NCBI GenBank assembly: GCA_020692245.1 | Contig: JAIMKT010000031.1 | Location: 1-33,093 of the forward strand | Direction: 5' to 3' | Length of the DNA: 33,093 nt | DNA from: Microcoleus sp. GA_180221_E-2-1-MAG-45_12 | GTDB taxonomy: Bacteria > Cyanobacteriota > Cyanobacteriia > Cyanobacteriales > JAAUUE01 | Part shown: one piece after another, positions 1 through 23,019 of the stretch | How the letters are laid out: each line of letters opens with the position of its first letter | How positions within the stretch are numbered: position 1 is the first letter of the stretch | Program-made: the position numbers and the translations under genes | Notes under the pieces: model-generated | The model's input: only the letters and a program-made list of their open reading frames with translations | What the model was told of the DNA's origin: nothing | Databases searched by the model: none

Positions 1-76
1 CAATCTGATATAGCAAGTGGACTTCTGTGAACCATGAATTAGAATCCCCGTGCCTTTAGGTCGGGGAGTATGTCAA
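1..76 (+). mobile_element. Right end of an IS200/IS605-type element (likely TnpB omega-RNA 3' end)
   Basis: The first 76 bases resemble the conserved right end of cyanobacterial IS200/IS605-type elements. A GTGAACCATGAATTAGAATC-like tract (27-45) leads into a hairpin. Its stem is CCCCG (46-50) with CGGGG (62-66), with T51 bulged, an inner stem 52-54/59-61 and a TTTA loop. The hairpin is followed by GAGTATG and then TCAA (73-76), the tetranucleotide used as the right cleavage site in IS608-type elements. In TnpB-carrying members this end encodes the 3' scaffold of the guide (omega/re) RNA, and the guide comes from the flank, here starting near base 77. The transposase or tnpB body would lie left of the window, so I cannot say whether the element is intact. 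The match rests on recall of the motif, not on a search. Confidence 0.65.
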
Positions 77-257
77 AGGTGATTGATTTGTTGATGGAGA
101 TGAAGTAGGCTGGCAAAGGATGCCGTGGAGTTGTTTCTGGCTGAAGATGAATGTAGGTAACAGACTGAGACATAGGGCTTGACTCTAGGCTATGATACGT
201 TGAAGAGATAGAAAATATAAAAAAGAACGAAAAAATTCGGCTTTTGCCTTTGTAATT

Positions 258-779
258 ATGCCTAGAAGTCAGCGTAACGATAATTTTATTGATAAAACCT
301 TTACGGTTATGGCAGATATGATTCTGAAAATGCTGCCCACCAATCGCAAAGCGAAGGAAGCCTTTGTTTATTACCGGGATGGACTATCGGCTCAGTCGGA
401 AGGGGAATATGCGGAGGCACTAGAGAATTATGAAGAGGCTTTGAGATTAGAAGAAGACCAGAATGATCGCAGTTTTATTCTCTACAATATGGGACTGATC
501 TATGCCAGTAACGGCGAACATGACAAAGCCCTCGAATTTTATCACCAGAGTATTGAGCTGAATCCCCGGCTGCCCCAAGCCTTGAATAATATTGCCGTGA
601 TTTACCATTACAAGGGCGATAAATCCAAAGAGGCAGAGGAGTTGGAACGGGCTGAGGCGTTTTATGATCAGGCGGCGGAGTATTGGAAAGAGGCGATCCG
701 GTTGGCTCCCAATAACTACATTGAGGCGCAAAACTGGTTAAAAACCACGGGTCGATCGACCATGGATGTATTTTTCTAA
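258..779 (+). CDS. ycf3: Photosystem I assembly protein Ycf3
   Basis: Ycf3 is a thylakoid-associated chaperone that helps assemble photosystem I subunits. The 173-aa product has the diagnostic N-terminus [15 protein letters not shown] and three TPR units. These lie at about residues 35-68 ([18 protein letters not shown]), 72-105 ([20 protein letters not shown]) and about 110-155, where the last repeat is extended by the acidic stretch [20 protein letters not shown]. Length and start agree with the usual 170-173-aa family. No clear Shine-Dalgarno sequence precedes the ATG. The upstream 180 bases hold no other gene, but they directly abut the IS605-like right end at 1-76, so the insertion sits in the ycf3 5' flank. 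gatC follows 13 bases downstream and may be cotranscribed. Confidence 0.97.
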
Positions 780-2500: not shown

Positions 2501-4051
2501 ATGAAAAAAATTGCGTATTTAGAATGTCCGACGGGAATTGCTGGGGATATGTGTCTAGGAGCCTTGGTTCATGCTGGGGTTCCGTTGGATTATCTCCAGA
2601 CTGAACTAGCCAAACTGGGGCTTGGGGATGAATATCATCTTTGGGCAGAACCCGTGCATCATAATGGGCAGGTCGCTACCAAGGTGCATGTGGATTTGTT
2701 ACTAGAAGAAACCTTAGACCACCACCACTCAGAAACTTCCCTAGATCATCATAAACATAATCATGAACCTAATCCCATTCATTCCCTCGAACATGATCAT
2801 GACCATCCCCATGACCATACTCAGAAACCGGATCATGAGCCTCAACTCGATCGATCTCAAGTTCTCTCCCTAAGCGATCCCCAGCTAGTTAATAACCAAG
2901 AACATACTCATCAACATAATCACAAGCATAATCATGGGCAGAAAAATCATCGTCCCCATCGACACTTACCAGAAATTACTAAGTTAATTAAAGAGGCTGG
3001 TTTACCAACACGAGCTAGGGATTGGAGCTTGGCAGTATTTCACAAGTTGGCGATCGCTGAGGGAACAGTGCATGGCATTTCTCCCGAACTGGTGCATTTT
3101 CATGAAGTGGGGGCGACGGATGCGATCGTGGACATTGTGGGGACGTGCTTGGGCTTGGATTGGTTAGGGATTGAGGAGCTTTATTGTTCGGCGTTGCCTA
3201 CGGGGGGCGGGACAGTGTGGGCAGAGCATGGGCGTTTACCAGTGCCAGTACCAGCCGTGTTGCAGCTTTGGCAGGATCGGCATTGTCCGGTGTATAGTAA
3301 CGGGATCGATCGAGAGTTAGTCACCCCCACGGGAGCCGCCCTAGCCGTAACTCTGGCACAGGATTTTGGTCAACCGCCTGCCATGAATTTACACAAAGTC
3401 GGTCTGGGAGCCGGAACTCAACAATTACCCATCCCCAATATTCTCCGGTTATGGTTAGGAGAAAAAATAGAAGGTTTCACGGCTAAATCTCATGCTGTCA
3501 GTCAAAACAGCCAAAGCAATCAAAGTTCTAGTGAGTCTAATCGGCATCCTCTGAATAATCTTGTCACTAATTCTAATCATCTTGTAGAGACCTTAAAAAC
3601 AGAAACTACAGAAACTATTGCCGTGTTAGAAACTCAGATTGATGATCTCAGCCCCCAAGCTATTAGTTATGCTTGCGATCGCCTCTTTCAGGTAGGAGCT
3701 TTGGATGTGTTTACCCAAGGAATCACCATGAAAAAATCTCGCTTGGGAACGTTGTTAACTGTGATTACTCCCGTGGCAAAAATTGCTGACTGTGAGCAGG
3801 TATTATTCCAAGAAACCAGTACCTTGGGGATTCGTCGATCGATGCAAACTCGATCGATCCTCCACCGAGAAATCCAACCAGTCACCACAGCCCACGGTAC
3901 AGTCCGGGTCAAAGTTGCATGGCAGCAGTCGGGGCAGATTCTCAATGTGCAACCAGAGTACGAAGATTGTGCCGCGATCGCTCGATCGACCAACCAGGCA
4001 CTCCGGGAAATTCAAGCTACTACTCTCAAGACTTGGGAGAGGAAACAGTGA
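2501..4051 (+). CDS. larC: Nickel pincer cofactor biosynthesis protein LarC
   Basis: LarC is the CTP-dependent nickel insertase that completes the nickel-pincer nucleotide cofactor of lactate racemase (LarA) and related enzymes. The N-terminus [22 protein letters not shown] and the central [16 protein letters not shown] are diagnostic. After the N-terminal domain comes a large insert (about residues 75-157) with more than 20 histidines in HDH, HNH and HTHQH clusters, probably for nickel binding or storage. The rest ([37 protein letters not shown]) is complete. In some lactobacilli larC is split and joined by a programmed frameshift; here it is one frame. The frame opens with GTG at 2498 followed by ATG at 2501, and I take the ATG. 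No larA, larB or larE is in the window. The stop codon lies inside a short tandem repeat. Confidence 0.93.
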
Positions 4052-4073
4052 ACAGTTATCAGTTATCAGTTAT
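4046..4073. repeat. Short heptanucleotide repeat at the larC 3' end
   Basis: ACAGTGA-ACAGTTATC-AGTTATC-AGTTAT spans the last codon and stop of larC. The unit AGTTATC is the reverse complement of the GATAACT unit at 22975-22988, so the two loci carry the same repeat family in opposite orientation. It resembles the short tandemly repeated (STRR-type) heptanucleotide families known in filamentous cyanobacteria. The following bases to 4208 hold nothing else I can assign. Confidence 0.7.
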
Positions 4074-22907: not shown

Positions 22908-23019
22908 CAGTGAACAGTAAACAGTAAACAAGGAACAGTGAACAAGGAACAGTGAACAAGGAACAGCAAGGATTGATAACTGATAACTGGTAACTGTTAA
23001 CTGTCAACTGTTAACTGTA
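22908..23019. repeat. Tandem repeat block (14-mer x3 and heptamer x6)
   Basis: Bases 22927-22968 are three tandem copies of AACAAGGAACAGTG, the last ending CA. They are preceded by CAGTGAACAGTAAACAG. Bases 22975-23016 are six tandem heptamers: GATAACT, GATAACT, GGTAACT, GTTAACT, GTCAACT, GTTAACT. The block fills the gap between murD and the upstream ATPase gene and runs into the latter's coding end. The heptamer is the same family as that at the larC 3' end, inverted. Confidence 0.88.

Follow-up and report, generated by a model that had tools for sequence, protein, structure and literature searches.

The window, by which we mean the whole stretch of 33,093 nucleotides that was analysed, covers bases 1-33,093 of contig C36 (43,837 bases) in the assembly of a cyanobacterial genome, G000 (4.2 Mb in 132 contigs). 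Its first base is the start of the contig and no biological boundary. The beginning of the window carries, in order, the tail of a tnpB gene, a hairpin followed by a TCAA terminus, a segment of host DNA, and ycf3, the gene of a photosystem I assembly protein (Table 1). The hairpin and the TCAA are those described in the original prediction, which had read them as one end of a transposable element; within the stem, bases 45-50 and 52-54 pair with 59-61 and 62-67.

Table 1. Features at the start of the window, with the evidence on which each assignment rests
Position	Strand	Feature	Evidence
1-30	+	3' end of tnpB, comprising the nine final codons (QSDIASGLL) and a TGA stop (28-30); contributes to the putative guide-RNA scaffold	Frame, C-terminus, and spacing common to intact TnpB elements
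31-76	+	Right end (RE) of IS200/IS605-type element; putative 3' end of reRNA/omegaRNA scaffold	Copies in the genome and in relatives stop at base 76; C83 empty site
42-45	+	GAAT, right guide tetranucleotide (G_R), 5' foot of hairpin	15/18 distinct aligned sequences; IS608 G_R (PMC5934647)
45-67	+	RE hairpin, 9 pairs, loop TTTA; helix 3 of scaffold	Covariation
73-76	+	TCAA, right cleavage site (C_R), final element bases	Same-end copies; C83 empty site; PMC5934647
77-96	+	Host flank, candidate guide of TnpB reRNA (its initial ~16 nt, by analogy with ISDra2)	RE boundary; guide role by homology (PMC8612924)
77-225		Host DNA not common to the congener's ycf3 upstream region; 79-118 putative Rpn/YhgA-like (DUF4351) remnant	Genome and congener comparison
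226-257	+	Conserved native 5' flank of ycf3	Congener homology begins at 219-226
258-779	+	ycf3, photosystem I assembly protein, intact	NCBIfam NF002725, 319.5 bits (cut-off 143); 99% identical to congener

The terminus at base 76 is shared by other copies in the same genome, all stopping at the identical TCAA, a comparison that the original prediction had proposed and that goes in its favour. Specifically, copies end exactly at base 76 at C85:1-73 (99% identity), C83:14249-14320 (93% over window bases 5-76), and C113 (97% over bases 39-76), as well as on C60 and C98, and weaker right-end-like matches on C120, C74, and C56 stop at this base or a few bases from it. Aligned across copies, the right ends have the common form GAAT-hairpin-…TCAA, and matches to bases 1-76 at E<=0.001 occur in 237 of the 391 genomes of the order. 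A search of the genome contigs for the 50-base right end, written as an exact degenerate pattern, gave no match, and a search of Rfam gave no real one. Contig C85, like C36, begins at the repeat of bases 1-76, as expected of assemblers, which break at multicopy elements, and the left part of the window element is missing from the assembly because the contig begins inside that repeat. Further, contigs C1, C22, C121, C77, and C58 break off within the left ends of IS605-type elements, and such repeats thus explain part of the fragmentation of this assembly.

The limits of the element could be fixed from a sister copy, C83:13895-14320 (equivalent to L018:3896-4321), whose empty site is found in the congener G001 (contig C72). 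There, a flank ending in TTTTAC is joined straight to TTTTGATGC, and the joined flanks align over 574 bases at 93% identity; the one gap, of one base, lies away from the junction. The uninterrupted TTAC|TTTTGATGC thus shows that the target TTAC is retained and that the element ends in TCAA, the insertion at C83 having occurred without target duplication. For the window insertion itself, an empty site was sought in G001 and not found, as the region has been rearranged between the two congeners. The original prediction had also considered that an empty-site relative might carry bases 1-76 unchanged; they are absent from the region upstream of ycf3 in G001.

The first 30 bases identify the kind of element. 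Read in frame 1, they align to the C-terminus and stop codon of intact TnpB proteins in relatives, and the distance from this stop to the end of the TCAA is 46 nt (76-30). The same frame, C-terminus, and 46-nt distance recur in intact TnpB elements (~413 aa), among them L119, L122, L123, and L126; across relatives of the order, open TnpB frames with this C-terminus are mostly of 413-422 codons, and the stop-to-TCAA distance is exactly 46 nt in most. The closest relative, L119, is 98.6% identical at the DNA level over 69 bases, and its TnpB protein carries OrfB_IS605 and Cas12f1-like_TNB domains. Hence, where the original prediction asked whether any tnpB lies nearby on the upstream side, the answer is contained in the window, since bases 1-30 are themselves the 3' end of one. 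In relatives, the tnpB-only element is ~1.38 kb long, and in this layout we take it to resemble the IS1341/IS891-like elements of Cyanobacteria. A tnpB N-terminus on contig C1, which breaks inside the gene, was considered as the left half of the window element and rejected: its relatives L147-L149 terminate differently, in …GGAGAGTGTCAA at 15 nt beyond the stop, and the C1 tnpB therefore belongs to another clade.

These observations also bear on whether the hairpin is an ordinary intrinsic terminator, or some unrelated hairpin, rather than a transposon end. It is G+C-rich and follows a stop codon ahead of the next gene, as a terminator would, but it has no T-run, and the dispersed copies that stop at TCAA, the tnpB tail, and the empty site of the sister copy leave such a reading extremely improbable; an intrinsic terminator was ruled out on the copies and the tnpB tail. 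It is, by contrast, very probable that bases 1-76 represent the right-hand end of an insertion sequence of the IS200/IS605 type that carries tnpB and has IS608-type ends (target TTAC, C_R TCAA, guide tetranucleotides AAAG and GAAT), inserted ~180 bp upstream of ycf3 in the same orientation, probably in or beside a decayed gene for an Rpn-type nuclease. Three points weigh on the other side: the assembly lacks the left end, the tnpB body, and the TTAC of this copy; the closest complete TnpB of the clade in the genome, C57, is only 57% identical; and no empty site was found for this insertion. Nevertheless, 76 bases suffice to identify a right end truncated by a contig boundary once relatives are compared. 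The window copy is a further copy of an already known kind of element.

The ends can be compared with those of IS608 from Helicobacter pylori, a member of the IS200/IS605 family in which the tetranucleotides are TTAC (C_L), AAAG (G_L), TCAA (C_R), and GAAT (G_R) (PMC5934647). All four are present here beside subterminal hairpins, and insertion is 3' of TTAC, with the left-end part of the likeness being read from related elements in the genome. Specifically, the eight left ends found in the genome, that of C83 among them, all read TTAC|C…TTGGG…TAAAG and then form a hairpin; in the window copy, the contig start precludes reading the left end and its TTAC. Two features set the present elements apart from IS608. 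First, the copies here have tnpB without an adjacent tnpA, so that TnpA would act in trans; Y1_Tnp domains occur in the genome at C72 and C48, the former an IS200/IS605 transposase by NCBIfam, and neither adjoins the window copy. Second, the TnpB sequence belongs to a cyanobacterial clade.

The hairpin also appears to be part of a longer structured RNA. Folded alone, bases 1-120 are unremarkable (z -0.81), and, as the folding energy of this segment is not significant, we judged structure solely by covariation. For this, the last ~155 nt of 18 copies were aligned, 14 with a tnpB frame and four mini-elements without one. In the three named helices, 52 cells are changed on both sides of a pair, relative to 11.5 in shuffles. 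The hairpin itself has 95.7% of cells paired across relatives, and 14 of its cells are changed on both sides where shuffles average 2.9; RNAalifold predicts 40 pairs for the ~155-nt tail, 26 of them with compensatory two-sided changes. The hairpin and the two helices upstream of it thus covary across relatives, in the manner expected of a TnpB guide RNA, and the conserved structure overlaps the 3' end of tnpB and the RE and ends at TCAA. The window contains the 3' half of this scaffold, the 5' half lying beyond the contig start. Together with the same-end copies and the tnpB tail, the covariation upholds the earlier assignment of the locus as an IS200/IS605-type right end that includes the 3' portion of the scaffold of a TnpB guide RNA.

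In ISDra2 of Deinococcus radiodurans, the tnpB 3' end and the RE contribute ~150 nt of the reRNA, and the flank then supplies a guide of ~16 nt (PMC8612924); the ~155-nt structure described here matches this reRNA in length and position. The two differ in that the TAM here would be TTAC, as opposed to TTGAT in ISDra2, and in that the present clade is described here from its sequence. Homology suggests the following course for transposition, for processing of the RNA, and for guided cutting. A Y1 transposase, TnpA, supplied in trans, would excise and insert the single-stranded DNA of an intact element, its ends being recognized through pairing of GAAT with TCAA and of AAAG with TTAC. TnpB would be expected to process its own mRNA to a scaffold of ~155 nt with ~16 nt of guide starting at base 77, and the resulting reRNA would direct cleavage of the empty donor site, in which TTAC is joined to base 77 onward (AGGTGATTGATTTG), so that the element is restored.

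Whether the window copy derives from a full-length element bears on this scheme, given that the sister copy at C83 is a mini-element without tnpB. Related mini-elements (L118, L121, L128, and L129) come from four genomes of another family (G091, G219, G002, and G179), and all share a layout of left end, conserved non-coding interior of ~180 nt, full reRNA tail, and RE, within 370-430 bp. We presume that C83 and its four relatives, which have both ends and no tnpB, are akin to the MITE/PATE-type mini-elements of IS200/IS605, from which they differ in retaining the whole structured guide-RNA tail and not only the end palindromes. By eye, the interior is preceded by a TATAAT-like box; promoter scans with consensus motifs passed over this box and yielded nothing convincing in the mini-elements. 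The interior was also considered as a second tnpB tail, a candidate rejected on its reading frame, which is broken in C83 and L128.

The window copy might likewise be a mini-element, moved by TnpA in trans and supplying its guide RNA to another TnpB in trans. The existence of such elements in G000 and in the four other genomes, the 93% match of C83 to the window, and the absence from the assembled genome of a full-length tnpB cognate to the clade (the nearest complete TnpB in the G000 assembly, C57, is only 57% identical) speak for this possibility, which we nevertheless regard as somewhat unlikely, since the first bases of the window point the other way. Bases 1-7, CAATCTG, match the full-length elements L122 and L123, whereas the mini-elements read AAGCCTG; the CAAT of bases 1-4, in place of AAGC, makes a full-length origin of the window copy the more likely, on what is thin sequence evidence. 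It is tempting, if rather doubtful, to suppose further that mini-elements with a complete covarying scaffold are solo guide-RNA genes that borrow TnpB in trans, and that the window copy might belong among these, with its guide RNA encoded just upstream of ycf3. The mini-elements constitute a natural test of whether the guide RNAs of tnpB-less elements can serve TnpB.

The original prediction placed the guide at bases 77-96 and drew it from the flank of ycf3. Its start at base 77 stands, being set by the boundary of the right end; its source is not the native flank of ycf3. Homology to the ycf3 flank of G001 begins only at window bases 219-226 and the sequence further upstream is unrelated, so that bases 77-218 do not belong to the conserved flank of ycf3. 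The genes upstream of ycf3 are arranged differently as well: the upstream neighbour in G001, a gene that we take to be DUF3181-like, has its counterpart inside contig C18 of G000, with other genes next to it. The segment 77-225, between the transposon end and ycf3 and absent in the congener, marks a rearrangement breakpoint relative to it. Bases 79-118 share 80% identity with a 307-aa ORF on C52 that matches DUF4351 and YhgA-like Transposase_31/PDDEXK, and they read VIDLLMEMK*, with an in-frame stop. This sequence match suggests that the element probably inserted within or next to an Rpn-type nuclease gene, now decayed, a location that we infer, the match being short (40 nt).

The proximity of the element to ycf3 raises the question of whether this remnant yields a guide RNA that targets the gene or the ycf3 promoter, or whether read-through from the element alters ycf3 expression. 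The two share an orientation and no intrinsic-terminator-like site was found between the RE and ycf3, so read-through into the gene is possible. However, the proposed guide is foreign to the native flank, and a search of both genomes of the genus (G000 and G001) for TTAC followed by bases 77-96, with up to three mismatches, found no target, the sole match to 77-96 being the TCAA-flanked source itself. Further, the proximal 32 bp of the ycf3 flank are conserved (97% over 35 bases), and no TAM adjoins the filled site: the resident flank follows TCAA and not TTAC, and the occupied site is thus not expected to be cut, consistent with the proposal that TnpB cuts the empty donor joint and not the occupied site (PMC8612924). 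We consider either effect on ycf3 very improbable. Nothing indicates that the element controls or endangers ycf3, and the idea that a TnpB guide is tied to a photosynthesis gene, tempting as it is, is corrected here as unsupported.

Elsewhere in the window, a pair of genes of toxin-antitoxin type, encoding a HepT-like ribonuclease and an MNT-type nucleotidyltransferase, lies on the minus strand at 1095-1753 with a 4-base overlap. Finally, short dispersed repeats (CAGTGAACAGT/TATCAGT) occur at 4037-4073 and 22908-23005, in both direct tandem and inverted arrangement.
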